Positions 31,001 through 50,219 of a stretch of 64,000 nucleotides of DNA are shown here, in pieces (position 1 is the stretch's first letter; every line of letters starts with the position of its first letter). The notes beneath the pieces were generated by a model. It did no database searches and was not told where the DNA came from. It saw only the letters and a program-made list of their open reading frames with translations. This DNA is from Aliiroseovarius sp. M344. GTDB taxonomy: Bacteria > Pseudomonadota > Alphaproteobacteria > Rhodobacterales > Rhodobacteraceae. Both the position numbers and the translations under genes were made by a program. The stretch is from NCBI RefSeq assembly GCF_025140835.1, contig NZ_CP081153.1, forward strand, positions 2,666,001-2,730,000, given 5' to 3'.

Positions 31001-31454
31001 CGTCACCCGCAACCACAAGCACCCCGCCCTTCGGAGCTGAGCCATAGGCGTTGCCGTGCTTCAGCGCATCGCCCGAACGGTCCACCCCCGGGCCCTTGCC
31101 ATACCACATGGAAAATACGCCCTCGACCTCGCAATCGGGGTCAAGACTGGCTTGCTGCGCACCAAGAACTGCGGTCGCGCCAAGGTCTTCGTTGACGGCG
31201 GGCAGAAAGGTGATCTTGTGTTCCGCCGCGCGCTTGTTCTCTCGCCACAGCTCAAGGTCTAATGCACCCAGCGGCGACCCGCGATAGCCCGAGATGAAAC
31301 CGGCGGTGTTCAACCCCGCAGCGCGATCCCTGCGCGCCTGATCCAGCATAATGCGTACTAGTGCCTGTGTGCCAGTCAGAAAAACCCGTCCCGTGTCACG
31401 CGCATAGCGATCAGCAAGTTGATAGGTTGAGAAGTCAGAATCTTGGCGTGTCAT
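28026..31454 (-). CDS. Fused indolepyruvate ferredoxin oxidoreductase
   Basis: This is a 1142-residue single-chain enzyme. It oxidatively decarboxylates arylpyruvates (from Trp, Phe or Tyr) to aryl-acyl-CoA. The N-terminal half has the 2-oxoacid oxidoreductase pyrimidine-binding domain (GTQALVRIMLDQARRDRAAG, GFISGYRGSPLG) and the ThDP domain with CSGCPHNTSTKLPDG and ILYNDAVAMTGGQPVDG. In the middle lies a Cys-rich segment (CEGCGDCSVESNC, then CNKDLSCLNGFCPSF), probably Fe-S. The C-terminal third is the gamma domain, with VTGVGGTGVVTVG. It is divergent from an Lrp regulator, with two dyads between them. GGAG precedes the start. Confidence 0.92.
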   Translation of the reverse strand: MTRQDSDFSTYQLADRYARDTGRVFLTGTQALVRIMLDQARRDRAAGLNTAGFISGYRGSPLGALDLELWRENKRAAEHKITFLPAVNEDLGATAVLGAQQASLDPDCEVEGVFSMWYGKGPGVDRSGDALKHGNAYGSAPKGGVLVVAGDDHGCVSSSMPHQSDVAFMAWFMPTLNPASVGEYLAFGEYGLALSRFSGTWVGFKAISETVESGQSVDLRPDRQFTLPKIEIPPGGLHVRHADLPSPEIETRIGHKLKAVRAFVEANPIDRAVYDIDDATFGFVTTGKAHLDLLEALRLLGLDEARCRALGIDIYKVGMVWPLARRDALRFVRGKAEVLVVEEKRGIIESQFKEYFYDWPGDKPNRMVGKYDSQGEPLIPWTGELSPLMLVPIVAARLDQVFPSEDFKAKADALVEQPPCVLKTEGASRTPYFCSGCPHNTSTKLPDGSVAASGIGCHVMASWMNRNTVGYAQMGGEGVPWVATSKFNGGKHIFQNLGEGTWYHSGSLAIRQAIAAGTNITYKILYNDAVAMTGGQPVDGPISVAGIVHTCRAEGVSRIALVSDDIGKLSHADFPAGVTFHDRSEMDQVQRELRDISGVTVLVYEQTCATEKRRRRKRGTMEDPKTVPYINPLVCEGCGDCSVESNCLSVEPLETEFGRKRKINQSSCNKDLSCLNGFCPSFVTIEGATRRKRDTSQLDVAAMLGDVAHPVLPDLTEPFDLLVTGVGGTGVVTVGALITMAAHLEGKGSSVLDFTGFAQKFGTVLSYLRLGASPDAVHQVRIDIGSADAVIGCDMVVSSSPKASVHYRSGSKVVLNRAEMPTGDLVLSRDASLRIDAREAAVRAAVGSVNVSGLDANQTAEALLGDAVYANVIMLGYAWQMGLVPVSETALKQAIQLNGVKIAENSRAFDLGRVLAAAPDRVAVADPKPTEAPTPADLIEARAVFLVDYQNAAYADRYRRALADFSASLPQALEADVLPVAAKSLFKLMAYKDEYEVARLHTQMGFDTQLEQEFEPGFSVKYHFAPPLLPLGKDARGRPHKRAFGPWMTPVLNRLARLKGLRGTMFDPFGYTTERREEVALVNWYENGLKKLTGKITTDNQEDALAFLTAPLEMRGYGPVKRDAVAKQRPKADDALRRALAG

Positions 31455-31475
31455 GGCAGGCTCCGCTGTTGCTCA

Positions 31476-31552
31476 ACCAAGATATTTCATCGATCTTGGT
31501 GATTCATACCTTTCAACACCGAAAGATACGCGATATTTGGTAATAAATACCA
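31476..31552. promoter_or_regulatory. Divergent operator region for the indolepyruvate oxidoreductase gene
   Basis: ACCAAGAT (31476-31483) and ATCTTGGT (31493-31500) form a perfect 8-bp dyad with a 9-nt spacer. TGGTA (31538-31542) and TACCA (31548-31552) form a second dyad across ATAAA. Both are in the 128 bp between the enzyme gene and its Lrp-type neighbour, the expected place for the regulator's sites. The dyad sequences do not match an Lrp consensus that I could name. Confidence 0.5.
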
Positions 31553-31582
31553 CTTTCAGCGACCAAAAGGGATATTTTCACC

Positions 31583-32041
31583 ATGGACCTTGACGACAAG
31601 GATCGGCGTATTCTGGAACTGCTGCAGAAAGACAGCACGATCTCGAACGCTGATCTGGCCAATGCGGTGGGCATGTCGACGTCGGCCTGCTGGCGTAAAG
31701 TACGGATGCTGGAAGAGGCGAAGATCATTGAACGCTACGGCGCTTATCTGAACGCTGCCAAGGCCGGGCTAAAATTTCAGGCCATTGTGCATGTTCAATT
31801 AACCCGCCACGATCCGGACAAGGTCGACGACTTCATCAAGGCCGTAAACCGGCGGCCGGACGTGGTGGAATGCTTCGCCACCACCGGGCAAGCGGATTAT
31901 CACTTGCGGGTGCTGTGCCGCGACCTGCCCGCGTTCAACGCGTTTCTGGAAGGCTTCCTGTTCAAACTGAAGGCGGTTGAAAGCGCGCAAACCAACGTGG
32001 TGCTGCGCGACATCAAGAAGCACTCGCCCATCCCTGTGTGA
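31583..32041 (+). CDS. Lrp/AsnC-family regulator divergent from indolepyruvate oxidoreductase
   Basis: The 152-residue protein begins MDLDDKDRRILELLQKDSTI with the winged helix DLANAVGMSTSACWRKVRML and ends with an RAM ligand domain (TTGQADYHLRVLCRDLPAFN, TNVVLRDIKKH). The ATG at 31583 is 128 bp from the start of the divergent enzyme gene. The likely effector is an aromatic amino acid or its 2-oxoacid. It resembles the MdeR-like protein at 26489 in size and layout but has a different recognition helix. Confidence 0.9.
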   Translation: MDLDDKDRRILELLQKDSTISNADLANAVGMSTSACWRKVRMLEEAKIIERYGAYLNAAKAGLKFQAIVHVQLTRHDPDKVDDFIKAVNRRPDVVECFATTGQADYHLRVLCRDLPAFNAFLEGFLFKLKAVESAQTNVVLRDIKKHSPIPV

Positions 32042-32049
32042 CAGAGGGG

Positions 32050-32766
32050 TTAAGACGCGCGCAGACCGGATGCCATGCGCCAACCCAGCAAAACGATACC
32101 AATGACCGCTAAGCCGATCACTGGCCAGTTTTGCGACGGGATGTTGGCCGCAATAACCCCGGTCAGGGCCCAGATCAAGGCAGCGGGGTATGACCATGCA
32201 GCGGGGCGCAAGGATTGAACGTAAAGGGCGGCAATCAGCACGATCACCAGCATCAGCAACGCGGCGGCTTGAACTGACAGTACCTCGTACCCGCCCAACA
32301 CGACACCCGTGCCAACCCCGGTCGCGGCTGTGAGCCAACCGGCATAAAGCGCCACCGGCCGTAACTGCCACCAAGCATCATCATCCCCGGCACGAAGCAT
32401 TGCGACAATTGCTGCCACCGCCATAGCCAATATCATCACTGTTGCAAGGAAGGGTGAAGCGTTGGCCGCCGCAATCCAGAAACATCCCAACAGCAAACTG
32501 ATCGCAAGAGGGCGACGCATCCTCTGCCAATCCGCATCATCGGGCGCTTTGAAAAGCCCCCAGACGGCGCCTGCGATCAGCCAAAGATAAATCAGACCCC
32601 AGATACTGAACGTCCAACCCGCTGGCTGCACTGGCCAGAAGGTCTCTTTGTTGGGGAACTGGTCGGGCGAATATCCGGCAAAGCTGCTGCTGAACAAAGG
32701 CGACAGCATGAAGATGATCGACAGTACAAGGACCGCAATGGCCAGAAAGGGTGCAGAACGTGGCAT
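32050..32766 (-). CDS. TspO/MBR-like tryptophan-rich membrane protein
   Basis: This 238-residue membrane protein has about seven hydrophobic segments and many tryptophans. The second span opens with FWPVQPAGWTFSIWGLIYLW, which matches the TspO/MBR superfamily pattern (aromatic, Pro-Pro, Trp-x-Phe-x-x-x-Trp-x-x-x-Tyr). It is longer than classical 160-residue TspO, so it is a divergent member. TspO proteins of Rhodobacter bind tetrapyrroles and modulate photosynthesis genes, but that role is not shown here. It lies 54 bp after DUF3833 and may be the last gene of the lipid island. The start at 32766 gives a normal first span. Confidence 0.7.
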   Translation of the reverse strand: MPRSAPFLAIAVLVLSIIFMLSPLFSSSFAGYSPDQFPNKETFWPVQPAGWTFSIWGLIYLWLIAGAVWGLFKAPDDADWQRMRRPLAISLLLGCFWIAAANASPFLATVMILAMAVAAIVAMLRAGDDDAWWQLRPVALYAGWLTAATGVGTGVVLGGYEVLSVQAAALLMLVIVLIAALYVQSLRPAAWSYPAALIWALTGVIAANIPSQNWPVIGLAVIGIVLLGWRMASGLRAS

Positions 32767-32820
32767 TGTGTTTTCTCGTGTGTTGGGTCTTTGATCAGGT
32801 GGCAAGGGTGTGGTCTTGGA

Positions 32821-33381
32821 TCAGGGTTGGCCTCCGGAAACCGGGCGCATTGTTGCGATCAATTCGGCCACCTTAAGGCCAAACTTGCGCATCTCGGATT
32901 TGTTCATGATGACTCCGTCCTGTGTCAGGTAAAGCCAATCGGTTGCGGTCAGGGTGTGACCACCTGCTTCTGGCGGCAAAACAATCTGGTACTGCATCGA
33001 AACCGTCGACCCGGAAACGACGCCTTTCGCCTCGCCCACAATGTCCTCGGCCGTGGCTGTGAATGTGTTGCCTTCGCCCAGTTTCAGAAACCATTTGCGG
33101 TTTTGTTCGCGCCCGTTGGAATAGGTGAATTTTTCGGTCAACGTGCCGGTGTCACCGTCCCAGGTGCCGACCATTTCTGCCACAAAACTGTTCGTCACCC
33201 TGCCTTTCGGACCATAGATCAGCCCTTCGGATGCAAACGAGCCGGAAAGATGTTCTTTCAACGAAAAGGCTGGGCTGGTCCCGGCATAGTCCTCGGGGCT
33301 TTGGGCACGGAAGCTCATAAGCAGTGTCTTGGCAAGTGTTGCCGCCAAAATCAGCAATAACAGCGCTGTCAGGATTTTCAT
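32821..33381 (-). CDS. DUF3833-family protein
   Basis: The 186-residue protein has an N-terminal membrane anchor (ILTALLLLILAATLAKTLLM) and a single lipocalin-like beta-rich domain: FSLKEHLSGSFASEGLIYGP, GRVTNSFVAEMVGTWDGDTG, TLTEKFTYSNG, and DWLYLTQDGVIMNKSEMRKF. This is DUF3833. Its start overlaps the MFS gene stop by 4 bp. DUF3833 genes commonly accompany CFA-synthase and amine-oxidase-like genes of the singlet-oxygen regulon, which fits its place here. Its biochemical role is unknown; a lipid-binding beta-barrel is plausible. Confidence 0.85.
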   Translation of the reverse strand: MKILTALLLLILAATLAKTLLMSFRAQSPEDYAGTSPAFSLKEHLSGSFASEGLIYGPKGRVTNSFVAEMVGTWDGDTGTLTEKFTYSNGREQNRKWFLKLGEGNTFTATAEDIVGEAKGVVSGSTVSMQYQIVLPPEAGGHTLTATDWLYLTQDGVIMNKSEMRKFGLKVAELIATMRPVSGGQP

Positions 33382-34604
33382 TGGGTTCGGTCCTCTGTCG
33401 GAAGCGCCAGCACAAGGCCAAAAGCGCAGAGTTTTAAGATACAGGGTACGACGGCATAAGCCATGTTCAGCGTGTTCAGCGCATCGGCGCTGTTCACCTG
33501 GCCGGGTTGGAAACCACTGCGGTCAAGCAGTGGCAAGACAGCGAAAGCCGCAAGTGCCAGCCCCAACTTGCCCGCAAATGACCATATGCCAAATGCCGCG
33601 GACGCACTTAACCCTGCCTTTGTCAGCACAACGGAAAACATGGCGGGCAGAACAACCATGTCAGCCCCCAGCGCCGCACCCGACGCCACGCAAATAATGG
33701 CAAAACCAACCAAGTTGCCGGGGGCAAGAAACGCAGCGCCCACAAAGCCAAGGATGGCCAGCGGCATCGAGATCACAAGCGTCATTCTGGTCCCAACGCG
33801 ACGGCTTAAACGGGTCCAAAGTGGAACACTCAGCCCGGCGCACAGGAAGAACAGGATCAGCAGCGGCCCAGCCTTTCCGGGCAACTGCAGCCGATCTTCC
33901 ACAAAAAACAGAAACAGGGTGGAAGTCACCGCGACCGGCAAACTGTTGACCAGAGCCAGAACAAGAAGTCGCACCGCCCCTGCCCCGGCCAGTCCGGCGA
34001 ATGTCAGGCCGTCGCCCAACACAGGCGGGCGCCGCCAGATCGGAAAGCTGAGAACTGCGACCACGACTGCGGCTACGCCCAGAAAAACCCCAAAGGCGGG
34101 ATAGCCTTGCCCACGCGCGCCCAGCCCCATGAACAGGGCCGGTGCTATGGCCGCGATCACCACCCCGACCAACATGCCAATTTCGCGAAAGGCCGCCAGG
34201 GTCATCAGGTCATGTTCGCTCGTGGATTTCGCAAGCGTTGCGCTGCGCCCGTACAAAAGGATCATACCAAGGCTATAGGCTGAAAACAAAAGCACCAGAA
34301 CGGCAATCAATTGAAGGATAACACCTTCGCCGGGTTGCAAAGCAAACAGGATGGGAAACCCCACAGCCAAGCCAGCGGCAGCCAGCATCGCAAAAAGCGT
34401 TTGCGCTTTGGGCCAACGGTCTATCGCCCAGCCCAGCAAGGGATCCTGCACAAGATCAACCAGCCGAATGACCACCAAGATCACCCCAATCACGCCCAGC
34501 CCGACACCAAGATTCACCGACGCGAAACGCGGTAAATGGATGTAGAGCGGAATGCCAGCCGCGGCCAGCATCAGCGCATAGAGGCTGACGCGCGGGTAAA
34601 CCAT
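33378..34604 (-). CDS. MFS transporter (GPH-like) of the lipid island
   Basis: The 408-residue transporter has twelve membrane spans, with LVDLVQDPLLGWAIDRWPKA (the cytoplasmic loop 2-3 motif of GPH-type sugar and lipid MFS carriers) and RVGTRMTLVISMPLAILGFV later. The start is one base after the stop of the chalcone-isomerase-like gene, and the stop overlaps DUF3833, so it is translated in a coupled operon. By homology with the corresponding Rhodobacter gene next to rpoE-chrR targets, it may move a lipid precursor or cyclised product, but no substrate is readable. Confidence 0.85.
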   Translation of the reverse strand: MVYPRVSLYALMLAAAGIPLYIHLPRFASVNLGVGLGVIGVILVVIRLVDLVQDPLLGWAIDRWPKAQTLFAMLAAAGLAVGFPILFALQPGEGVILQLIAVLVLLFSAYSLGMILLYGRSATLAKSTSEHDLMTLAAFREIGMLVGVVIAAIAPALFMGLGARGQGYPAFGVFLGVAAVVVAVLSFPIWRRPPVLGDGLTFAGLAGAGAVRLLVLALVNSLPVAVTSTLFLFFVEDRLQLPGKAGPLLILFFLCAGLSVPLWTRLSRRVGTRMTLVISMPLAILGFVGAAFLAPGNLVGFAIICVASGAALGADMVVLPAMFSVVLTKAGLSASAAFGIWSFAGKLGLALAAFAVLPLLDRSGFQPGQVNSADALNTLNMAYAVVPCILKLCAFGLVLALPTEDRTQ

Positions 34605-34605
34605 G

Positions 34606-35118
34606 TTAGGTTCCGGTCAGTTTCTGTGTAAAGGATTTCGATCGGGTATTGTCGCCCACGAAAATACCCATGAAGCGGCTCTTGATCTGCGGATAGGACA
34701 GCGTGCAGGTGCGTTTTCCGTTACGCCAGAACCCGATTGCGTCCGCACCGTTTGACACGGCAAGATAGCGATCACCCTTTTTCACAGCATCAAAACAGCT
34801 ATTCAGATGCGCTTCCAAAGGAAGCGCACCACCGGTTCGCTTGAATTCGCGCATCGTAGCCTCGACAAGGTCGTATTGGGACAGGTTGCGCAGATAGGTC
34901 AGTTCGATCCCGAAATCCTTGCCCCAATCCAGCGCCGCACCCTTCACAGTGAAAAGTCTTGCTTGATACAGCGGCAGGCCCAGAAACCGCAACGTTGCGG
35001 TGCCGCGCACCTGAGCCCCGGGAAGTGCAGCAGCTGCGATGTTGCTTTGTGCCAAAGCGGGAGCCGCGGGTGCCCCTGCCAATGCAATAAGTACCGCCAG
35101 TTTTCTAAGTATGTGCAT
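34606..35118 (-). CDS. Chalcone-isomerase-like exported protein
   Basis: This 170-residue protein has a signal peptide (MHILRKLAVLIALAGAPAAP ending ALA) and a chalcone-isomerase-like domain: RGTATLRFLGLPLYQARLFT, DFGIELTYLRNLSQYDLVEA and KTCTLSYP-like end strands. In plants the non-enzymatic members of this fold bind fatty acids, and a CFA-synthase-like gene is the immediate neighbour, which supports a lipid-binding or lipid-modifying role. I start at 35118 because GGAG precedes it; the frame's first 77 codons overlap the CFA gene and are not plausible. It overlaps the CFA gene's end by 14 bp. Confidence 0.78.
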   Translation of the reverse strand: MHILRKLAVLIALAGAPAAPALAQSNIAAAALPGAQVRGTATLRFLGLPLYQARLFTVKGAALDWGKDFGIELTYLRNLSQYDLVEATMREFKRTGGALPLEAHLNSCFDAVKKGDRYLAVSNGADAIGFWRNGKRTCTLSYPQIKSRFMGIFVGDNTRSKSFTQKLTGT

Positions 35119-36268
35119 GAGCCAACTCCACTTGAACGACATTGGTGTGCCCGACGGCGAACGACGCCGCACAAATTTCGAGATAATATTGCCAATTGCG
35201 CTGAAACGCCTCGCCATAGCCCATCTCGGCCACCTTGCGTTTCTGCGCGGTGAAGCGTTCGGCCCAGAAGCGGCACGTCTTGGCATAGTCCTGCCCGAAA
35301 TGAAAATTGTCTTGGACCTGCAAGCCCGCATTGCGCGCTTGTTCGTCAATCACGCTGTCCGACAGCAACATGCCCCCCGGGAAGACATACTGCCGTATAT
35401 AGTCAGACGAGGTTTTGTAGGTTTCAAAGAAACTGTCTTTCACCGTGATCGCCTGCAACAGAACACGACCGCCTTCCGCAAGGTTGTTTTTCAGAACCGA
35501 GAAATAGTCAGGCCAATAGCGCGCGCCCACAGCCTCGATCATCTCGATCGAGACGATGTTGTCGAACTTTCCGTTAATGTCCCGATAGTCGCGCAGCTGA
35601 ATATCGGCGCGTCCATCCAGACGGCACTCGGCATAGCTGTGTTGGTTGCGCGAGATCGTCACACCGGTCACGTCGCGGCCATCTTGCGTGGCGTGTTCAG
35701 CAAATCCGCCCCAGCCACAACCGATTTCCAAAATCTGCTGACCCGCCCCAAGACGGGACAACGCGCGGGCGTTTTTCCGGTTTTGAGCGTCAGCCAGATC
35801 ATCGCTTCCATCGGCAAAAAGTCCGGAGGAATAGGTCATGCCCTCATCCAGCCACAACTGGTAGAATTCGTTCCCCACGTCGTAATGTGACCGAATATTC
35901 TTACGCGACCCGCGGCGAGAATTGGCCCGCAACATCGTGTCGACCACGCGAAACTTTGCCCGGTTCAACACACTTGCCTGATCGTAGGACCCAAGATGAT
36001 CGCGGTTGCGCATGGCGATCGACATCAGCGCTTCAATCGACGGGGTGTCCCACATGCCCTGCACATAGGTTTCGCCCAGCCCGACTTGGCCGTGCGCGGC
36101 CATGGCAGACACAGCCGCCCAATCGCGGATCACCATCTCGGCTTCGGGGCCGGATGTGCCGAACCGATAAAGCTCACCTTCCGGCGTGCGCAGTGTCAAT
36201 TGACCTTCGCGCAGACGCTCACAAGTTGACAGAAATTCCGACTTCAGGGCTTTGTTCGTCAAACGCAA
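35105..36268 (-). CDS. Cyclopropane-fatty-acyl-phospholipid synthase-like methyltransferase
   Basis: The 387-residue protein has an N-terminal lipid-binding region and a SAM domain: VGNEFYQLWLDEGMTYSSGL, ILEIGCGWGGFAEHATQD, VTGVTISRNQHSYAECRL, VSIEMIEAVGARYWPDYF and VFPGGMLLS. These are standard CFA-synthase motifs. I take TTG 36268 as the start because AAAGGA lies 7 nt upstream. It overlaps the FAD oxidoreductase gene by 50 bp. In Rhodobacter the homologue beside rpoE-chrR is part of the sigmaE regulon and, with its FAD partner, is linked to methylated furan-type fatty acids. Function here is inferred from that pairing. Confidence 0.85.
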   Translation of the reverse strand: MRLTNKALKSEFLSTCERLREGQLTLRTPEGELYRFGTSGPEAEMVIRDWAAVSAMAAHGQVGLGETYVQGMWDTPSIEALMSIAMRNRDHLGSYDQASVLNRAKFRVVDTMLRANSRRGSRKNIRSHYDVGNEFYQLWLDEGMTYSSGLFADGSDDLADAQNRKNARALSRLGAGQQILEIGCGWGGFAEHATQDGRDVTGVTISRNQHSYAECRLDGRADIQLRDYRDINGKFDNIVSIEMIEAVGARYWPDYFSVLKNNLAEGGRVLLQAITVKDSFFETYKTSSDYIRQYVFPGGMLLSDSVIDEQARNAGLQVQDNFHFGQDYAKTCRFWAERFTAQKRKVAEMGYGEAFQRNWQYYLEICAASFAVGHTNVVQVELAHAHT

Positions 36269-37550
36269 TTTCGCATCCTTTCAAAGGGTCGTCTTTGTTG
36301 ATCATCCGCACGATACGCATTGCGCTGGCAATGCCGTCTTCGTGGAAGCCATGGCGATGATAAGCCCCGGCAAACCACGTCCGGTTCAGACCCTGCATGG
36401 CACGCAGTTCATGTTGCGCCTGAAGCGCGGGCTTGTCGAAAACAGGGTGAGAGAACTCAACCTCGTCATAAATTTTCTCTGCAGGGATCGGGGCCGAGGG
36501 ATTCAACGTCACGAAAAGCGGATCGGTTTCGGGGATATTCTGCAGTTTGTTCATCCAATAGGTGACACCAATGTCCCCATCTTGCGACCGGTAGGCCCAG
36601 CTGGACCACGCCGCCTTGCGCTTGGGCATCTGACCGCTGTCGCAGTGCAAAACGGCTTTGTTCACTTGATAGCGGATGCGGCCCAAAGCTTTCGCCTCGA
36701 TCTCTGTTGCATTGTCGCCCAACATGGCCAACGCCTGATCGGAATGGCAGGCGAGGATGATGTCATCATAGCCTTTGTCTTCTGCCTTTGCCGTCTGGAC
36801 TGTGACGCCGTATAACATGCGTTCGACCCGCGACACCGGCGCATCCACACGAATGTCGACGCCGCGCGTGCGCAGCGCAGCTTCAAGCCGTGTCACGTAT
36901 TCGACGCTGCCACCTTTGACCGTCCACCACTGGTGCTCTCCCAACCCAGCCAAAAGCGCATGGTTGCGGAAGAACTGAACAAGGGACTTGGCCGGGAACT
37001 GATCAACATCATCCACTGGCGTGGACCAGATCGCGCCACACATCGGCATCAGATAGTTGTTGCGAAACCACTGACCAAGGCCAAGCTCGTCAACCAGCTC
37101 TCCGATTGTTTTGTCGTCATCCTTTGCAGCGTCTTCTGCCCGTTTACCGAAACGAATGATGTCTGCGATCATTTTGTAAAACTGCGGCCGCAACAGATTG
37201 CGCTTCTGCGCGGTGATGCATTTCAGGTTGTTCAGCCCATATTCCAGCCAACCGTCATTGATGCTGGCGCCGAAGCTCATTTCGCTTTTGGTGACAGGCA
37301 CGTCCAGTTCACGAAACAGCCGCGTCAAATAGGGATATGTCACATAGTTGAAGACGATGAACCCGGTATCAACGGGCTGATCGCCATTCTTGCCGGCCAT
37401 GACGGTCCGCGCGTGACCACCCAATCGCGGCGCAGCTTCGTAAATCGTGACGTCATGATTGGGCGACAGATAATACGCTGCCGACAATCCCGAAATCCCG
37501 CCGCCGACGATCGCTATTTTTCTTCGCGGACCTTGCTGTTGGTCGAGCAT
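36219..37550 (-). CDS. FAD-dependent oxidoreductase (amine-oxidase superfamily, lipid-island partner)
   Basis: The 443-residue protein starts with a Rossmann FAD-binding motif (KIAIVGGGISGLSAAYYL, then YEAAPRLGGHARTV). It has FIVFNYVTYPYLTRLFREL, SWAYRSQDGDIGVTYWMNKL and the C-terminal FAD site NRTWFAGAYHRHGFHEDGIA, the layout of the amine-oxidase/desaturase superfamily. It is the first gene of the minus-strand lipid operon and carries a sigmaE-type promoter at 37579-37607, with AGAGG upstream of ATG 37550. In Rhodobacter its homologue works with the CFA-like methyltransferase on unsaturated fatty acids and is needed for the full singlet-oxygen response. Confidence 0.85.
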   Translation of the reverse strand: MLDQQQGPRRKIAIVGGGISGLSAAYYLSPNHDVTIYEAAPRLGGHARTVMAGKNGDQPVDTGFIVFNYVTYPYLTRLFRELDVPVTKSEMSFGASINDGWLEYGLNNLKCITAQKRNLLRPQFYKMIADIIRFGKRAEDAAKDDDKTIGELVDELGLGQWFRNNYLMPMCGAIWSTPVDDVDQFPAKSLVQFFRNHALLAGLGEHQWWTVKGGSVEYVTRLEAALRTRGVDIRVDAPVSRVERMLYGVTVQTAKAEDKGYDDIILACHSDQALAMLGDNATEIEAKALGRIRYQVNKAVLHCDSGQMPKRKAAWSSWAYRSQDGDIGVTYWMNKLQNIPETDPLFVTLNPSAPIPAEKIYDEVEFSHPVFDKPALQAQHELRAMQGLNRTWFAGAYHRHGFHEDGIASAMRIVRMINKDDPLKGCEIAFDEQSPEVGISVNL

Positions 37551-37578
37551 TGATGCCTCTTTCTTTTAATTCAAAGCT

Positions 37579-37607
37579 TATTACGGTTGCAGGTCCGGCT
37601 TGGATCA
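37579..37607 (-). promoter_or_regulatory. SigmaE (RpoE-ChrR) promoter of the minus-strand lipid operon
   Basis: On the minus strand TGATCC (37607-37602) is followed after exactly 18 nt by TAATA (37583-37579). This matches the -35/-10 pattern I know for Rhodobacter sigmaE promoters. Transcription would start near 37572, leaving a leader of about 22 nt before ATG 37550. Confidence 0.8.
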
Positions 37608-37682
37608 GAAAAGACCAACAAAAATATCTGCTAAAGCCAGTTGGACAAAGTAGCGCTGTCGGTCAGCTAAACCGATTATTGG

Positions 37683-37711
37683 TGATCCAAACCCCAGTTT
37701 CGTGCGTAATA
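37683..37711 (+). promoter_or_regulatory. SigmaE (RpoE-ChrR) promoter of the DUF1365-SDR operon
   Basis: TGATCC (37683-37688), 18 nt, TAATA (37707-37711). The -10 element ends 8 nt before ATG 37720, so the transcript would begin at or within one or two bases of the start codon. Confidence 0.8.
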
Positions 37712-37719
37712 CGGTCAAG

Positions 37720-38493
37720 ATGGTCGAACATATCCAAGCACACACGTTGCATGCCCGTCGTGGCAAGCTAAAAAACGCCTTCACATATGGCGTTGATTTT
37801 GTGCTGTGCGACCTGACCAGCAATACCCTGCCCGCCCTTCTGTCCCGCAACCGGTTTAACCTTTGGTCGCTTTGGGACAAACATCATGGTGGCCCACGCG
37901 GCGATGGTCGAGGCCTCGACTGGTTTCGTGACGAATTGGAGCAACGCGGCTTCCCAGCCAACGACCACGACCTGTCGCTGTTAGCACAGCCAAGTTTTCT
38001 TGGGTTTCACTTTAACCCGGTCAGCTTCTGGATTGCATCGAAAGACGGTACACCCCGCGCCTTCATTGCCGAAGTGAACAACACGTTCGGGCACCGGCAT
38101 TGCTATTTCTGCGCCCATGATGATTTCAGGCCGATTGAAAAACACGATGCAATTATTGCCGTGAAGATGATGCATGTCTCGCCCTTCCAAAAGGTTGAGG
38201 GCCAATACCAATTCAACTTCGGTATGACTGCCGATCGGTTCGACATCCGCATCCGATATGAGAATGGGGAAGAGGGGCTGCTTGCCACGTTGGTTGGGGA
38301 TCGCAGGCCGGCCACAAACGCTTCGCTTGCCTGGGCCGCGCTTCGCCGCCCGCTTGGTGCGTTGCGTGTTGTGTTCTTGATCTATTGGCAGGCGCTGATC
38401 CTATACATCAAACGCGCGCCCTTCATGCGAAAACCCGCACCACCCGAGCCATTGATTTCGGACAGTAAAACATATCGGGGAACCGAAAATTGA
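37720..38493 (+). CDS. DUF1365-family protein
   Basis: The protein is 257 residues from ATG 37720. The DUF1365 signatures are TLHARRGKLKNAFTYGVDFV near the start, QPSFLGFHFNPVSFWIASKD, AEVNNTFGHRHCYFCAHDDF and HVSPFQKVEGQYQFNFG. The function is unknown, but the gene pairs with SDR and CFA-type genes in many alphaproteobacteria. The longer GTG frame (37702) must be wrong because the sigmaE -10 element lies inside it. There is no Shine-Dalgarno before ATG 37720, consistent with a leaderless mRNA. Its stop overlaps the SDR start. Confidence 0.87.
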   Translation: MVEHIQAHTLHARRGKLKNAFTYGVDFVLCDLTSNTLPALLSRNRFNLWSLWDKHHGGPRGDGRGLDWFRDELEQRGFPANDHDLSLLAQPSFLGFHFNPVSFWIASKDGTPRAFIAEVNNTFGHRHCYFCAHDDFRPIEKHDAIIAVKMMHVSPFQKVEGQYQFNFGMTADRFDIRIRYENGEEGLLATLVGDRRPATNASLAWAALRRPLGALRVVFLIYWQALILYIKRAPFMRKPAPPEPLISDSKTYRGTEN

Positions 38494-39215
38494 TTGATTT
38501 CAAAGGCAAAACATATTGGCTGGTCGGGGCCAGCGAAGGGTTGGGCCGCGCCTTGGCGCAAGATCTTGACAAAGAAGGCGCATGTCTGGTCCTGTCTGCC
38601 CGGAGCGCAGATCGCCTGCAAAGCCTTGCAGACCAACTGACCAATGCACGCGTTGTTCCCATCGATGTGACCGATCCGGATCAGGTGAGTCAGGCCGTTG
38701 AAAAGGTCGGTAAAATCGACGGTATCGTCTATAATGCTGGTGCCTATGAGCCCATGCGCGCCGCCGACTGGGACAGCAAATCCGCCATCATGATGTGTAA
38801 CGTCAATTTTATGGGCGCCATGCATGTTCTGGGCGAAGTCGTACCGGCATTCGCCAAAGACGGTCGTGGTGATATCACCCTTATTGGATCACTGGCGGGC
38901 TATCGCGGCTTGCCGGCCTCTATTGGTTATAGCGCCAGCAAGGCAGCCATTGTCAGCCTGGCCGAAACCATGCGCTTTGATCTGAAGGACACTGGCGTTG
39001 TGGTGCGCATCGTTAATCCGGGATTCATCAAAACCCGGCTAACCCAGAAGAACTCGTTCAAAATGCCGATGCTGATGTCGCCCGAAGACGCAGCCAAGTG
39101 CGTGTTGAAGGCCATGCGGAAGACGCGGTTTCGCACCGACTTCCCTGCACCGTTCTCATGGGTAATACGCCTGTTGGAATACCTGCCCGACCTGATCGTC
39201 TATCGCGGCAAATAA
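38490..39215 (+). CDS. Short-chain dehydrogenase/reductase
   Basis: This 241-residue classical SDR has the NAD(P) motif LVGASEGLGRALAQDL, the NNAG-like IVYNAGAY, the catalytic Ser in ITLIGSLAGY and Tyr/Lys in IGYSASKAA. It starts at TTG 38490, overlapping the DUF1365 stop, with GGGGAA upstream, so it is translated by coupling. The C-terminal part is hydrophobic (FSWVIRLLEYLPDLIVYRG), which suggests membrane association and a lipid substrate. In Rhodobacter the homologue is a direct sigmaE target. Confidence 0.88.
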   Translation: MIDFKGKTYWLVGASEGLGRALAQDLDKEGACLVLSARSADRLQSLADQLTNARVVPIDVTDPDQVSQAVEKVGKIDGIVYNAGAYEPMRAADWDSKSAIMMCNVNFMGAMHVLGEVVPAFAKDGRGDITLIGSLAGYRGLPASIGYSASKAAIVSLAETMRFDLKDTGVVVRIVNPGFIKTRLTQKNSFKMPMLMSPEDAAKCVLKAMRKTRFRTDFPAPFSWVIRLLEYLPDLIVYRGK

Positions 39216-39258
39216 TCGGGCATCTGCCCTGCGCTACGTCAGAAGATTTATCGTAAAC

Positions 39259-39298
39259 AAAAAAGAATGCCGCCCAAATATTGAGCGGCATTCTTCTG
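39259..39298. terminator. Bidirectional terminator between SDR and fasciclin genes
   Basis: AAGAATGCCGC (39263-39273) and GCGGCATTCTT (39285-39295) form an 11-bp perfect stem with an 11-nt loop. An A run on the left gives a T run for the minus strand, so it mainly ends the fasciclin gene and may also stop the SDR operon. Confidence 0.85.
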
Positions 39299-39326
39299 CG
39301 TTTGGCATACGCCCTTTTTCTTAGCC

Positions 39327-39842
39327 TTAGTGGCAGGCAGGGCGCGCGCCCGGCAGAAGCACCTTGTCGATCACGTGAATAACACCGTTGTCGGCCATGA
39401 TATCCGCGATGATTACATTGGCCATGTCACCTGTGCTGTCAGCGATCTTCACACCATCAGCGCCTGCCGAGATGCATAGACGCGCACTGGTCAGGGCTGG
39501 TTTGAAATAATTCGAGCCCATCGGGATCATCCCGGCGGTCAGTTTGCGGTCATCGACGTGATACAGAAGAATATCGGTCAATTGACCCTTGTTTTCGGGC
39601 TTCAGAAGCGTCTCGACGGTGCCTTCAGGAAGCGCGGCGAAAGCGTCGTTCACTGGTGCATAGACGGTGAAGGGGCCGGGGCCCGACAATGTGTCGGCCA
39701 GACCAGCCGCCCCGACAGCTGCAACGAGGGTCGAGAAACGCTCGTCTGCGGCAGCAATCTCGACGATATTGTCAGCTTGGGCGGCATTCGCAGCGACGGT
39801 CAAAGCAAGCGCAGCAGCAGCGGTTTTAAAAACATTCTTCAT
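39327..39842 (-). CDS. Secreted fasciclin (FAS1) domain protein
   Basis: The 171-residue protein has a signal peptide (MKNVFKTAAAALALTVAANA, cleavage after the second AQA region) and a single FAS1 domain: FSTLVAAVGAAGLADTLSGP, PFTVYAPVNDAFAALPEGTV, ILLYHVDDRKLTAG and ADNGVIHVIDKVLLP. The H1 (TVYAPVNDAF) and H2 (VIHVIDKVLLP) motifs are intact. Such small secreted FAS1 proteins mediate adhesion or carotenoid binding; in Rhodobacter one is induced by singlet oxygen. Here it is a monocistron between chrR and the SDR operon, with terminators on both sides. Confidence 0.92.
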   Translation of the reverse strand: MKNVFKTAAAALALTVAANAAQADNIVEIAAADERFSTLVAAVGAAGLADTLSGPGPFTVYAPVNDAFAALPEGTVETLLKPENKGQLTDILLYHVDDRKLTAGMIPMGSNYFKPALTSARLCISAGADGVKIADSTGDMANVIIADIMADNGVIHVIDKVLLPGARPACH

Positions 39843-39983
39843 AAGTTGATCTCCTAGTTGGAAGGCAAAGTGCCCATGGTTAACTCTTACTTATGTTAGG
39901 AATACGGCTGGCTTTGGCTGGTGGTTCACTGTGTTTCAAAGACTCACACAAACGTGAGGGCGTGCCTTCTAAACATTTGATAA

Positions 39984-40013
39984 CAAAAAAGAACCAGCGC
40001 CGAAGCGCTGGTT
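39984..40013 (-). terminator. Terminator of the rpoE-chrR operon
   Basis: On the minus strand AACCAGCGC (40013-40005) and GCGCTGGTT (40000-39992) form a 9-bp stem with a UUCG-like 4-nt loop, followed by a run of seven T with one C. It lies 49 nt past the chrR stop. Confidence 0.9.
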
Positions 40014-40062
40014 TTACCGTAGGTGTAAGGGGTGCCGTGAGTGGTGCGTGGCAAACCGTTAT

Positions 40063-40698
40063 CTAGATACGAAAGAAAGGTTGCAGCAACCGCGGCATAA
40101 GCTCGTTAAACCGCAACGGGGCGTCTGTTGCGGCCAGACAAATGCAGGCCTCTCCCGGATCGGCAACCGGCGTGTGATCAAGATCTTCATCTGCAATCTC
40201 GATGTCACCTACGCCAAAACGCCCTGTTTCATCACTGAAGCTGCCCTGAAGCACCAAGGTCATCTCCATCCCGTTGTGCCCATGATCAGGAACGGCCTGA
40301 CCTGAGGGGATATAAAGCAGACGAACCGAGCCTTGCTTGTCCGCTGAGAGGATGGACTGACGCACCCCCATACCGACAGATCGCCATTTAGGCTCCTGAC
40401 CTTTCAAAGCCTGAACGACAGGGCTTGGGTAAATCCCCTGACGGGAATAAACCGGCTCTGCTTTCACAGGGGCATCCAACTGGGCCAGCAAGTCAGCTTT
40501 CATATTGCCCGACACCGCGACATGATCGACGGCCTCCAGCAGCGCCCCCCCCATGTTGTGATGCGCTTCCAAAGATGCGCGACATTCCGTGCACAAAGAC
40601 ACATGGCTGGCGACCGCCACCGCATAATGATGCGGAAGATTGCCCGAGGCATAGGCTGCCAGAATTGCGTCTGGTATATGATGGGTTATAGCGCGCAT
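40063..40698 (-). CDS. chrR: Zinc-dependent anti-sigma factor ChrR
   Basis: The 211-residue protein has the N-terminal anti-sigma domain with zinc ligands His6, His32, Cys36 and Cys39 (SHVSLCTEC) and the C-terminal cupin with DHGHNGMEMT (His139, His141, Glu145) and a late His in DLDHTPV, the full set known for ChrR. ChrR holds sigmaE inactive and releases it when singlet oxygen damages the cupin side. The start overlaps the rpoE stop by 1 base (TAATG), as in Rhodobacter. The terminator at 39984-40013 follows. The identification is firm. Confidence 0.95.
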   Translation of the reverse strand: MRAITHHIPDAILAAYASGNLPHHYAVAVASHVSLCTECRASLEAHHNMGGALLEAVDHVAVSGNMKADLLAQLDAPVKAEPVYSRQGIYPSPVVQALKGQEPKWRSVGMGVRQSILSADKQGSVRLLYIPSGQAVPDHGHNGMEMTLVLQGSFSDETGRFGVGDIEIADEDLDHTPVADPGEACICLAATDAPLRFNELMPRLLQPFFRI

Positions 40699-41255
40699 TA
40701 TCGCATTCCGTTCAGTTCATGTCTCAACCGCTCCAGACCAAGCCTGATACGGGATTTTATTGTTCCAAGTGGCAGACCGGTCTGGTCGCTGATTTCCTGA
40801 TGGGTCAGCTCGCCCAGATAGGCCTTTTCGATCATCTCGCGTTGCTCAGGTTTGAGCGATGACAACGCTTTTCTGAGCTCGCCAGCTTCCTGCTGAACCG
40901 CAAGGATCTGGCTGGCATCAGGTTCCGATCCCGGATCTTCAGCCAGCTCTTCTGGCACCGGGCGACTGTCTTTGCGCACAATGTCGATGTGCCGGTTGCG
41001 TGCGATCTGATAGATCCACGCTGACACCTGTGCGCGGTGCGGGTCAAACATCGCGGCCTTGCGCCACACGGTTAACATAACGTCTTGCACAATCTCTTCC
41101 GCCTGCGGCGCAGAGCAGCCCGTCCGCATGATGAAACCTTTCAGACGCGGTGCAAAGTGGTCAAACAATGCACCAAACGCATCCCGATCGCGGTTGTCAC
41201 GAACGGCGAGCATCCAAGTGGTCTGCTCTGAAATCTCGATCTTCTTCTGCGGCAC
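40698..41255 (-). CDS. rpoE: ECF sigma factor RpoE (singlet-oxygen response)
   Basis: The protein is 185 residues from GTG 41255. Sigma region 2 reads RDAFGALFDHFAPRLKGFIM, AEEIVQDVMLTVWRKAAMFD and YQIARNRHIDIVRK; region 4 reads LKPEQREMIEKAYLGELTHQ with the helix DQTGLPLGTIKSRIRLGLER. The pairing with chrR identifies it as the singlet-oxygen sigmaE. I start at GTG 41255 because AAGGA lies 6 nt upstream, and the longer frames begin at or before the proposed transcription start at about 41332. A sigmaE-type promoter upstream indicates autoregulation. Confidence 0.93.
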   Translation of the reverse strand: MPQKKIEISEQTTWMLAVRDNRDRDAFGALFDHFAPRLKGFIMRTGCSAPQAEEIVQDVMLTVWRKAAMFDPHRAQVSAWIYQIARNRHIDIVRKDSRPVPEELAEDPGSEPDASQILAVQQEAGELRKALSSLKPEQREMIEKAYLGELTHQEISDQTGLPLGTIKSRIRLGLERLRHELNGMR

Positions 41256-41338
41256 CGGTTTTCCTTCACGACGGCACACAGGCGGCATCGGAGGCCGGGT
41301 GGTGCGCGGGGGATCAAGGGTCAGTGTCAACATAACCT

Positions 41339-41367
41339 CAATACGCGGCACTATGAAAGTCGGATCA
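41339..41367 (-). promoter_or_regulatory. SigmaE-type promoter of rpoE-chrR (autoregulation)
   Basis: On the minus strand TGATCC (41367-41362) is followed after exactly 18 nt by TATTG (41343-41339). It shares the -35 and spacing of the two promoters at 37.6 kb. Transcription would start near 41332, giving a leader of about 75 nt to GTG 41255. Confidence 0.75.
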
Positions 41368-41430
41368 CTTTGAGCGAAATTTTTTTCGCGGCCTGATCAC
41401 GTTCTGAAGCAATAACAGGTTTTTACTATC

Positions 41431-42120
41431 CTACCGGTGCGAAACGCGGTGGAACAAATGCGTAAATGTTGCAGCACCCAGAATGGGGATCAGCAGGTTC
41501 ACCAGCGGGATCGACAGCGGAATGGCCATCAACGTGCCTGCCAGCCAGATTTGCATGTTGTGTTGCGACCTCAGGCGGTTGGCTTCGGCGCGGCCAACGC
41601 GGCGCATGGCAGCCATCTGAAAGTATTCACGTCCCAGAAGATAGCCATTCACCACCCAAAACAGGATCGGCGCCAGCGGGCCGACAAAGAAAAACAGGAT
41701 CAACGCGATCAGGTTGACCCCGACAATCACGCCAAAGAAGCCCAGGCTGTCGCGGATCGTTTCGGTCATCGGAACATCAGGTGCAGGGGCCAGTTCGGGA
41801 TAATGCCGCGCCTCTACCGCGTCGGCAACGTCATCCAGAAAAATGCCCGTGAAAGCGCCTGCAACCGGCACCATCAGCACAACAGACAGAATAAGCATCA
41901 ACAGAAGCGACGCCCACCATGCAATGCCGTCCACCCATGAGACATCGCCAATCAGCGGCAATGACACCGTATCCGGCACCAGAAAGCCCACCAACCACGT
42001 CATTGCGAGTGTCACCGCAATCAGAAGGCCGACCGTCAGAGCCACACCCTTCATCAGGACGTTGCGAAACCGGGGATCAGTCATCTGACCGACCGAGCGG
42101 AAGAAATCTTCAAACATCAT
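41431..42120 (-). CDS. EI24-domain (CysZ-like) membrane protein
   Basis: The 229-residue inner-membrane protein has four to five spans and the EI24/CysZ signatures FEDFFRSVGQMTDPRFRNVL at the start, FFVGPLAPILFWVVNGYLLG, REYFQMAAMRRV and a C-terminal PILGAATFTHLFHR. CysZ is a sulfate transporter of cysteine synthesis; many EI24 proteins have no proven substrate, so only the family is claimed. I start at 42120 because it makes an ATGA overlap with the nitroreductase gene. Confidence 0.85.
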   Translation of the reverse strand: MMFEDFFRSVGQMTDPRFRNVLMKGVALTVGLLIAVTLAMTWLVGFLVPDTVSLPLIGDVSWVDGIAWWASLLLMLILSVVLMVPVAGAFTGIFLDDVADAVEARHYPELAPAPDVPMTETIRDSLGFFGVIVGVNLIALILFFFVGPLAPILFWVVNGYLLGREYFQMAAMRRVGRAEANRLRSQHNMQIWLAGTLMAIPLSIPLVNLLIPILGAATFTHLFHRVSHR

Positions 42121-42695
42121 ATTGCTACCCAAGTTGTGATGGCGCTTACGTCCGGGCGGGGCCGTTCAGGCGGCGCGCTGGTCTCTGTGCCGATATGAAT
42201 GATACCGGCAACGGTTTCGTGACCTTTCAATCCCAATCCCTCGGTCAGGAACTGGCGATCATGGCTTGGCCAACCGGACAGCCAGTTTGCCCCCCAGCCC
42301 GACGCCAAGGCGGCGTTCAAAAGCGCCAGACAGACCGCCCCCGCAGAATACCGCTGCTCGATCTCGGGCACTTTGGGAGACGCCACGGGCGCCGACACAA
42401 CAACCACCGCCAGCGGACTGTCGGAAAAGGCCGATTGCGCCTTTGCGATCTGTTCGGGCTGTTCCTTCAAAGCCGCGCCGCGCGTGCCGACAAGTTGGGC
42501 CAGTCGCGCCATCGCCCCTTGCTCCAACACAATAAACCGCCACGGTTCCAGTTTGCCGTGATCCGGGCTGCGGGCCGCCGCCGTCAAGATCGGCACCAAT
42601 GCGGCGCGATCCGGCGCGGGTCCGGTCAGGGTTTTGGCAGGGCGTGAACGACGGGTAAGCAGGAAATCCAGCGCAGATTGATTGCGGTCAGGCAT
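42117..42695 (-). CDS. Nitroreductase family protein (YdjA-like)
   Basis: The 192-residue flavoenzyme begins ALDFLLTRRSRPAKTLTGPA, the nitroreductase FMN site, and has ARSPDHGKLEPWRFIVLE and QRYSAGAVCLALLNAALAS, then WPSHDRQFLTEGLGLKGHE. This short form, lacking the internal helix of larger nitroreductases, fits the YdjA group. It likely reduces small nitro or quinone substrates with NAD(P)H. The start 42695 has AAGGA upstream; 21 earlier codons are unsupported. It overlaps the EI24 gene by 4 bp. Confidence 0.88.
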   Translation of the reverse strand: MPDRNQSALDFLLTRRSRPAKTLTGPAPDRAALVPILTAAARSPDHGKLEPWRFIVLEQGAMARLAQLVGTRGAALKEQPEQIAKAQSAFSDSPLAVVVVSAPVASPKVPEIEQRYSAGAVCLALLNAALASGWGANWLSGWPSHDRQFLTEGLGLKGHETVAGIIHIGTETSAPPERPRPDVSAITTWVAI

Positions 42696-42793
42696 GGTTT
42701 TGTCCTTGGTTTGGCAAAATGCAGGCTTGGCCGCTGTTGCGGCTGGCTTATGGCACATGTCGTGTGTCAGGCGGCCTGCGTCAAGATGTTACA

Positions 42794-43906
42794 TCACTTA
42801 ACATCGAAAAATTCCTGCAACTCTGTGATCAGATCCGAATAGACCGCCTGCATTCTTGGGTTGGGTTGGCGCGCGGCGAACGTCTCGGCCAGGGGATCAA
42901 GGGCGTGAATGGCCGCACCAGACATTTCCTCGAGCACTGCATGACCGCAAAAGGGCACATAAACCTCGGAATAGCCGCCTTCATGCGCCATCATCAGACG
43001 CCCGCCACAATGATCGTGGGCCAGTTCCATCACCATGCGTGTCATTTGCCGGAACGTGTCGGCGGTTGCAAGCATGCAGGACAGCGGATCAATCAGCGCC
43101 GCGTCATAGCCACAAGCGATGATGATCACCTCTGGTTCATGCGCACGGATTGCCGGTGCAACCAGTCGTTCCATCACTTCCAGATAGGTGGCGTGGCCTG
43201 CACCCGGTGGCAGCGGGATATTCATATTAGCACCCTGCCCGGCACCCTCGCCGCGCACATCTGCGTCCCCAGTATCGGTCGGGTAGTTTCGTTCCTGATG
43301 GATCGAAATCGTCAAGACATCAGGATCGTCAATAAACACCGCTTCTGTCCCATTGCCGTGATGCACATCCCAGTCCAGCACCACAAACCGCTTCGCCAAC
43401 CCGGTCGCCTGCGCGTAGCGAACGGCAATCGCAAGGTTGGCCAACAAGCAAAACCCATTTGGAAACTCGGGCAGGCAGTGGTGGCCGGGCGGGCGCGACA
43501 GCGCATAGGCATTTTGCACGTCACCCTTCAGAACCGCCGCAAGCGCCGCAACAGACAGACCGGCCGACAGGGTGGCGATTTCGTACCCGCCCTGCCCGAA
43601 TGGCGTGCGCAGACCCAGTTCACCCCCGCCTGCGTCCGAGACACGCTTGAATTCATCCAGAAACGCCGTCGGATGCACTCGAGATAACATCTCGCGATCA
43701 GCCATCGGCGCGGTTTGTGCGTGAAGCGCGCTGGTCAAACCGGTCACGTCCATCAGGTTTTTCAAGCGCCGCTTGGTTTCGGGGTTTTCAGGCAGGCCAC
43801 CTGCGGCCAGCGGTTGCACCAGCCCGCCCACCGGAAGGTTTCCGGCGTAGTTCCCGCCAGAATGCCAGAAACATTTCTCGTCCCAGAAAAAGCCGGTCTT
43901 GGCCAT
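42794..43906 (-). CDS. Histone-deacetylase-family hydrolase
   Basis: The 370-residue zinc hydrolase shares the arginase/HDAC fold. Visible are the His-His motif SRPPGHHCLPEFPNGFCLLA, the zinc-binding VVLDWDVHHGNGTEAVF, ISIHQERNYPTDTG, IIIACGYDAALIDPL and MMAHEGGYSE, all in family order. In bacteria such proteins deacetylate polyamines or proteins, including acetyl-CoA synthetase. I start at 43906 because GGAG lies 8 nt upstream; the 75 codons before it are low-complexity and unsupported. It is divergent from a DUF167 gene. Confidence 0.9.
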   Translation of the reverse strand: MAKTGFFWDEKCFWHSGGNYAGNLPVGGLVQPLAAGGLPENPETKRRLKNLMDVTGLTSALHAQTAPMADREMLSRVHPTAFLDEFKRVSDAGGGELGLRTPFGQGGYEIATLSAGLSVAALAAVLKGDVQNAYALSRPPGHHCLPEFPNGFCLLANLAIAVRYAQATGLAKRFVVLDWDVHHGNGTEAVFIDDPDVLTISIHQERNYPTDTGDADVRGEGAGQGANMNIPLPPGAGHATYLEVMERLVAPAIRAHEPEVIIIACGYDAALIDPLSCMLATADTFRQMTRMVMELAHDHCGGRLMMAHEGGYSEVYVPFCGHAVLEEMSGAAIHALDPLAETFAARQPNPRMQAVYSDLITELQEFFDVK

Positions 43907-50091: not shown

Positions 50092-50109
50092 TCCACTTAT
50101 CCGTATTAA

Positions 50110-50124
50110 GCGTATTGAATACGC
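50110..50124. promoter_or_regulatory. Palindrome upstream of the RND efflux operon
   Basis: GCGTATT (50110-50116) and AATACGC (50118-50124) form a perfect dyad with one central G, 96-110 bp before the adaptor ATG. A third GTATT precedes it. This is a plausible TetR- or MarR-type operator for the pump genes, but no regulator is encoded nearby. Confidence 0.4.
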
Positions 50125-50219
50125 ACACCTTCGACGTGCCGAAACTGTGACCACACGCCGCTTGCTTGCAAAGGCATAGCAAGACAGGATGTTGTGGCGT
50201 TAAGTGGTGGAGTAGCAAC

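Follow-up and report, generated by a model that had tools for sequence, protein, structure and literature searches.

Divergent ECF11-type promoters between two lipid operons of Aliiroseovarius sp. M344 and a very probably leaderless rpoE in Rhodobacteraceae

In silico analysis of a 64,000-nucleotide stretch of the Aliiroseovarius sp. M344 genome (referred to here as the window; coordinates are positions within it) revealed two opposed sigmaE promoters of the ECF11 type between two lipid operons, and a third one in front of rpoE itself. The promoters at 37579-37711 are genuine, divergently arranged and ordinary representatives of a regulon described before. As a whole, the data are best explained (with a probability of about 0.9) by a divergent ECF11 pair from which RpoE would drive both operons, by autoregulation of rpoE, and by leaderless ufaO and rpoE mRNAs, the latter encoding an extended RpoE. 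The motif, its spacing and conservation, the placement of the ATG codons and the open frame are evident in the sequences themselves, and the dependence on RpoE in strain M344 is predicted from them. The promoter pair adds a marine-type Rhodobacteraceae genome to the range of the known regulon and illustrates how the latter has been rewired.

The leftward operon, encoded on the minus strand, starts with a gene for a ufaD-like FAD protein of the amine-oxidase fold, a homologue of RSP_1091 (36219..37550; PF01593). It is followed by a ufaM-like methyltransferase gene of the cyclopropane-synthase family (35105..36268; start tentative), placed by PF02353 only and encoding either UfaM or an ordinary cyclopropane synthase. 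The remaining genes encode a small, likely exported protein (34606..35118; start and signal peptide assigned by eye), an MFS/GPH transporter like RSP_1089 (33378..34604; PF13347), a DUF3833 protein like RSP_1088 (32821..33381; PF12915) and, after a gap of 15 nt, a protein judged hydrophobic by eye, probably the last of the operon (32050..32805; start tentative). The longer open reading frame of the small protein (34606-35349) gave no match in Pfam and NCBIfam, and the hydrophobic protein gave none in NCBIfam; in most of the ufaD loci compared (the best 80 of 273), the small protein has the MFS gene as its neighbour. The rightward operon, on the plus strand, consists of ufaO, a DUF1365 gene homologous to RSP_1090 with a predicted leaderless start (37720..38493; PF07103), and of a short-chain dehydrogenase gene, sdr, like RSP_1087 (38490..39215; PF00106). 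A search for solved relatives of DUF1365 at E up to 1 returned none. At the Pfam level, homologues of two members of the furan fatty acid set, UfaD (PF01593, amine-oxidase-like) and UfaO (PF07103, DUF1365), are present.

Further to the right, on the minus strand, lie a fasciclin-domain gene like RSP_1409 (39327..39842; PF02469), chrR for the zinc anti-sigma factor (40063..40698; TIGR02451, 211 bits at a cut-off of 124.5) and rpoE, which has 211 codons when read from the predicted leaderless ATG (40698..41333) and is matched by the R. sphaeroides crystal chain from codon 35 onwards. Alignment to 2z2s_B, inspected by eye against the published ligand list (PMC6852236), indicates that ChrR keeps all eight zinc ligands of the R. 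sphaeroides protein, in the ASD and cupin domains. A terminator-like hairpin (40013-39992) lies between chrR and the fasciclin gene, ahead of the latter's own promoter site. A 17-pair hairpin with a T-rich sequence after it (39261-39297), located where the ends of sdr and the fasciclin gene converge, is probably a terminator. A search for RNA families within 31400-42800 gave none at gathering score.

The ECF11 promoter, defined by a -35 element TGATCC, 16 nucleotides and a -10 element CGTA, is exact at ufaD, ufaO and rpoE, and is present with 9 of 10 bases at the fasciclin gene. The promoter of the ufaD operon occupies 37582..37607 on the minus strand (TGATCC 37607-37602, N16, CGTA 37585-37582), that of ufaO-sdr 37683..37708 on the plus strand (TGATCC 37683-37688, N16, CGTA 37705-37708) and that of rpoE-chrR 41342..41367 on the minus strand (TGATCC 41367-41362, N16, CGTA 41345-41342). 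An earlier note on this DNA had described TGATCC followed by 18 nt and TAATA on the minus strand (TAATA 37583-37579) and on the plus strand (TAATA 37707-37711), and TGATCC with 18 nt and TATTG in front of rpoE (TATTG 41343-41339). Read directly, all three elements are there, the opposed ones correct to the base. The 18-nt spacer is likewise present, but TAATA or TATTG taken as the -10 element is off by two bases, the conserved part being CGTA; among relatives the bases after CGTA vary and CGTA alone is kept. The base immediately after TGATCC is usually A or G in the relatives' promoters. The distance of 133 bp given for the gap holds as the span of both elements, but the start codons (37551-37719) are 169 bp apart. 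The list of three promoters was also incomplete, as it missed the sigmaE-like fasciclin site TGAACC-N16-CGTA at 39928-39903 (39903..39928, minus strand), which reaches at least 9 of 10 bases in 17 of the 21 relatives with the gene nearby.

A single RpoE-ChrR regulon covering both lipid operons and rpoE-chrR, as the earlier note predicted, is supported by the conserved motif, spacing and orientation, by a TIGR02451 ChrR with its ligands and by the work on R. sphaeroides. The note's estimate of at least eight genes would then be too low: with co-transcription, which the gene spacing suggests, the regulon would hold 6 + 2 + 2 + 1 = 11 genes in this island, the fasciclin gene included. In R. sphaeroides the RSP_1091-1087 operon beside rpoE-chrR has an RpoE-dependent, singlet-oxygen-induced promoter, and the fasciclin gene RSP_1409 belongs to the RpoE regulon (PMC3818230, PMC7074977). 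Since the homologous operons are already RpoE targets there, the regulon reading is not new. Neither is the motif, because the consensus of the window promoters is the published ECF11 one, given as TGATCCn16CGTA in Pseudomonas syringae (PMC5507510) and as TGATCC(N15)GCGTA in R. sphaeroides (PMC5036791); Shewanella rpoE2 has a promoter of the same type with mapped starts at an A (PMC4336711).

The pattern that the earlier note proposed for a genome scan, TGATCC-N18-TAWT, gave 14 matches in the whole genome against 0 for the reversed pattern, and TGATCCR-N15-CGTA gave 16 matches against 1 reversed in the 3.39-Mb genome. Judged by eye, 10 of these 16 sites precede plausible genes: rpoE, ufaD, ufaO, and those for ferrochelatase, photolyase, a second fasciclin protein, a DUF3833 paralogue, an outer-membrane beta-barrel protein, a DUF4864 protein and a small protein with no Pfam match. 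At the photolyase and beta-barrel sites a long open frame on the opposite strand also spans each site. The other six (L091, L093, L094, L095, L103 and L104) were discounted as promoters, again by eye, as they lie inside or over long open frames or have no clear downstream start. An exact TGATCCR-N15-CGTA site at 50089-50114 (plus strand) stands ahead of an RND efflux operon (HlyD_3 50166-51680, ACR_tran 51684-55010) and is also located inside the 5' end of a divergent 211-aa open reading frame with no Pfam match; it may be a promoter or a chance occurrence. The ferrochelatase gene hemH was considered as a third conserved leaderless target, given that in its own genome it has an exact sigmaE site (G000:C1:82299-82324, L089) with an ATG at +11. 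It was rejected: among the best 30 of 62 places, one of which is the own gene, 29 relatives were examined and a single one reached 9 of 10 bases, with the site 118 nt from the match.

Conservation of the pair was followed in the best 80 of 273 ufaD loci, obtained in one scan and extending to either side of ufaD by up to 7 kb. These loci are mutually related, so that the counts are not independent. The identity of ufaD (best segment) ranges from 59 to 92%, the closest relative among species-labelled records being Aliiroseovarius sp. S1339 (92%). One locus recorded as Nocardioides marinus (L023) is a typical Rhodobacteraceae ufaD-rpoE locus with 78% identity and likely reflects contamination or a misnamed assembly. 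A site with at least 9 of 10 bases is found on both sides of the gap in 78 of the 80 loci (79 on the ufaD side and 79 on the other). Opposite ufaD lie ufaO-sdr in 39 loci, which share the arrangement of the window, only sdr in 25 and rpoE-chrR in 16. In the sdr-alone genomes a single DUF1365 gene is located elsewhere, about 1.5 kb from chrR and divergent from it in 25 of 25, with rpoE in between; in these genomes rpoE (25/25) and ufaO (24/25) are preceded by a site that has no more than one mismatch. The divergent pair stays ahead of ufaD while the partner across the gap is swapped. Where rpoE faces ufaD (L072, L073 and L075-L088), the -35 boxes are very close in several loci, only 4 bp apart in L077, L078 and L083; at such a distance two polymerases may not bind simultaneously.

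These data bear on three other explanations of the gap. That the boxes are chance matches finds some ground in the hexamer, since TGATCC occurs 90 times in the 64-kb window against 37.6 expected from shuffles, and on its own it is no evidence. The complete element behaves differently: within the 180 bases before ufaD, TGATCC-Nx-CGTA occurs 141 times with x=16, once with x=15, twice with x=25 and never with any other x from 8 to 26. Both sides carry the site in nearly all loci, while only 25 of 2000 control 180-mers from the same 80 loci reach 9 of 10 bases. Chance can practically be dismissed. Divergent operons often have an operator in common, and such an operator could drive both operons with the sigma-like boxes incidental. 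However, in the 78 loci with both sites the boxes and their internal spacing are constant, but anything from 4 to 84 bp separates one -35 box from the other, which leaves no fixed shared operator and makes this explanation scarcely plausible. It is also very unlikely that the sites serve another ECF sigma factor of similar specificity, as the motif is the published ECF11 one and rpoE carries it too, or that they are dominated by a housekeeping promoter: a simple scan for sigma-70-like sites found four within 37500-41500 (2.6 expected) and none in the 37551-37719 gap. RpoE-driven divergent promoters are the preferred reading of the gap.

The two promoters of the pair differ in the position of the downstream start codon. 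Counting from the T of CGTA as 0, the window ufaD ATG (37550) is at +33 and has a Shine-Dalgarno-like AGAGG. Among relatives from the best 80 of 273 loci, 73 had a site in this count; in 47 of these ufaD has its first in-frame start at an ATG located at +34 to +36, an earlier start codon being present in 23. A Shine-Dalgarno-like 4-mer precedes ufaD in 74 of 79. The ATG of window ufaO (37720) is at +13, and in all 39 loci of the ufaO-sdr arrangement an in-frame ATG lies at +10 to +13 (one also has TTG at +7). This placement allows no room for a leader and predicts a leaderless or nearly leaderless mRNA. A Shine-Dalgarno-like 4-mer was found at ufaO in only 4/39 loci, against 74/79 at ufaD, and would fall within the promoter. 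There is little room for another start, as the PF07103 match begins at residue 6. The spacing is limited to the ufaO-sdr arrangement, for in 18 of 24 loci with ufaO opposite rpoE, ufaO has its first in-frame start at +72 to +80. The earlier statement that all promoters stand at sensible distances from starts is correct for ufaD; at ufaO (+13) and rpoE (+10) about 3 nt and 0 nt of leader would be left.

At rpoE an in-frame ATG (41333) lies exactly 10 nt past the T of CGTA. A family sample of Rhodobacteraceae, one genome per genus, contained RpoE at E up to 1e-40 in at least 154 of 198 genomes. From the matches listed, 147 rpoE upstream regions (30 loci and 117 regions) were taken, excluding the window's own gene and one second copy, and L292 was dropped as it meets a contig end. 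The sigmaE site is present in 140 of 146 regions (132 exact) and absent in six. The ATG is at exactly +10 in 127 of the 140 promoters, and in the 124 loci where it is open and in frame, the distance is fixed although the seven bases from +2 to +8 come close to random. The segment between +10 and the sigma domain has 37 different lengths, yet it is in frame in 130 of 140 loci. Stop codons make up 21 of 6070 codons in the +10 frame, compared with 283/5940 and 207/5934 in the other frames, and the loci free of stops number 128 of 140 in the +10 frame compared with 12 and 34. An open in-frame ATG lies at +10 in 124 of 140, at +11 to +13 in 8 more and at none of these positions in 8 (L155, L158, L204, L211, L213, L223, L230 and L260); in L158, L204 and L223 the +10 ATG opens a frame that stops before rpoE. 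The rpoE loci are related, and these counts are not independent.

The codon signature of the extension is weaker than its frame. In 24 loci of the same length, the window included, the codons directly following the ATG have an entropy of 1.26 at third positions against 0.91 and 0.94 at the other positions; over the 12 codons beyond them it is 1.53 against 1.45 and 1.55, with no excess. GC3 of the extension is about equal to GC1, so the codon-position signal is weak, and a family-wide codon-pair test yielded 2 usable pairs only; reading-frame and stop counts were used in place of the codon-pair and GC-by-position tests. The predicted extended proteins have 33-83 codons before the matched sigma part. 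In R. sphaeroides RpoE 2q1z, the nearest chain of solved structure, that part is preceded by 7 residues, and in the window RpoE by 34, making the latter 27 longer. In 101 of 124 cases the predicted protein has L, F, M or I as residue 2, and the base at +14 is biased; this preference may reflect an N-terminal degradation signal or protein stability, or a preference of initiation at the RNA level.

The most serious objection accepts the promoters and takes the +10 ATG for a feature of the promoter or of transcription initiation, RpoE being translated only from an internal GTG or ATG, like the crystallised R. sphaeroides chain (PDB 2q1z) with its short N-terminus. It draws support from internal start codons: 119 of 124 loci have an in-frame ATG, GTG or TTG no more than 14 codons from the sigma domain, accompanied by a Shine-Dalgarno-like 4-mer in 59 of 124. 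A similar case has been described for ecfF of Bradyrhizobium, a member of another ECF group, in which transcription was mapped to a start overlapping the ATG of the annotation and a later codon was preferred by the authors (PMC3420878). However, the other promoters of the regulon rarely carry an ATG at +10 (5/79 at ufaD, 0/25 at sdr, 1/17 at fasciclin genes), so it is not simply a part of the promoter, and an untranslated leader would not stay in frame in 130/140 loci nor free of stops in 128/140. Exclusive internal initiation is accordingly considered improbable. The +10 ATG, the in-frame lengths and the stop-free frame together indicate that translation very probably starts at the +10 ATG. 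We infer that the rpoE mRNA is very probably leaderless, from a likewise predicted transcription start, and encodes an N-terminally extended sigma factor. The internal codons near the sigma domain mean that translation could begin there as well, and two forms of RpoE are possible.

R. sphaeroides itself may lack the +10 ATG, because L155, whose RpoE scores highest against the R. sphaeroides protein in the sample (77% identity), has no in-frame ATG at that position. A search for an RpoE nearer than 77% identity found none in 394 family genomes (E up to 1e-87) or in 41 relatives of the nearest one. Counts of titles and terms in the open-licence PMC literature, outside which most subscription papers lie, showed, among the papers listed, none on a leaderless rpoE of Rhodobacteraceae, a weak negative; the leaderless, extended rpoE is apparently undescribed.

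Beyond the family, a class sample of 289 alphaproteobacterial genomes drawn evenly contained ChrR at E up to 1e-30 in 104, of which 99 were over the family cut-off. The analysis covered 104 ChrR places over the cut-off (30 loci and 74 regions) and excluded six class-level matches below it. The sigmaE site was found in 69 of 104 places, and in 38 of them rpoE is opened by an ATG at +9 to +14. Outside Rhodobacteraceae such an ATG is present in 34 of the 65 places with a site, across 24 families. Four more places in the class have GTG at +10 or +11, and 27 of 69 (27 of 65 outside Rhodobacteraceae) have neither ATG nor GTG. By these counts, a leaderless-spaced rpoE ATG is common in the class and nearly general in Rhodobacteraceae.

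The resulting model would operate as follows. Singlet oxygen or organic peroxide would lead to the destruction of ChrR and the release of RpoE, which would then transcribe the ufaD-ufaM-transporter operon leftward and ufaO-sdr rightward and, from 41367, rpoE itself with chrR. UfaM, UfaD and UfaO are known to synthesise a furan fatty acid, which singlet oxygen consumes, UfaO containing DUF1365 (PMC7380195), and the predicted homologues in the window would make such scavenging fatty acids. R. sphaeroides mutants unable to make furan fatty acid are defective in raising RpoE activity (PMC6852236); with furan fatty acids needed for full RpoE activation in that species, the loop would be self-reinforcing. 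The two divergent transcripts would be unlike each other, ufaD being preceded by a leader of about 22 nt that contains a Shine-Dalgarno sequence and ufaO starting within a few nucleotides of the 5' end. The leaderless rpoE mRNA would yield the extended RpoE. A broader hypothesis is offered tentatively, as a possibility that we consider rather doubtful at present: in Rhodobacteraceae and part of the other Alphaproteobacteria, RpoE would make its own leaderless mRNA, with the AUG at the transcription start, encoding an extended sigmaE'. If an internal start gave a shorter form as well, the two would constitute a second, independently evolved SigR'-like circuit under a zinc anti-sigma factor, in which the long form, translated with no Shine-Dalgarno sequence, would amplify the response fast and, given the preference at residue 2, would perhaps be degraded quickly, so that the response shuts itself off. 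Should the leaderless start prove real, studies of the master regulator of the singlet-oxygen response have dealt with a shorter protein, cloned RpoE may lack the N-terminal extension, and the feedback loop has leaderless translation as one of its parts.

Among known systems, the closest is RpoE-ChrR of R. sphaeroides (ECF11, group IV), with the same sigma factor, zinc anti-sigma factor, consensus and targets, namely RSP_1091-1087, phrA and fasciclin (PMC7074977, PMC3818230, PMC6852236, PMC5036791). There are differences in gene organization. In R. sphaeroides ufaD and ufaO belong to one operon beside rpoE, whereas the window has divergent ufaO-sdr and ufaD-ufaM operons with the ufaM-like gene linked; R. 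sphaeroides ufaM (RSP_2144) is located elsewhere. Compared with the described furan fatty acid pathway UfaM-UfaD-UfaO, the window holds all three predicted homologues adjoining (PMC7380195). The crystallised R. sphaeroides RpoE is without the N-terminal extension predicted for the window RpoE. The same promoter consensus, with photolyase and cfa as shared targets, is known for Pseudomonas syringae PSPTO_1043 and Shewanella RpoE2, which belong to Gammaproteobacteria (PMC5507510, PMC4336711).

Leaderless mRNA is translated in R. sphaeroides, as described for acuR-acuI-dddL, where it yields a regulator at a lower level; in contrast to rpoE, the promoter is different and, in the passages cited, neither a sigma factor nor an extension is involved (PMC3017554). 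The likeness to Streptomyces SigR is of another kind. There a SigR-dependent promoter gives rise to SigR', which is longer by 55 residues, has a half-life of about 10 min and is controlled by the anti-sigma factor RsrA (PMC4921905); RsrA and ChrR count among the founding zinc anti-sigma factors (PMC6852236). As in the window, an ECF sigma factor with a zinc anti-sigma factor has its own promoter leading to an N-terminal extension, which in the window is a predicted one. The two systems differ in that a second, constitutive promoter was not identified for rpoE, and in that SigR' is not described as leaderless in the cited portion of that account (PMC4921905). The feature characteristic of SigR, a sigma-dependent promoter with an in-frame N-terminal extension, is found in its predicted form at rpoE.
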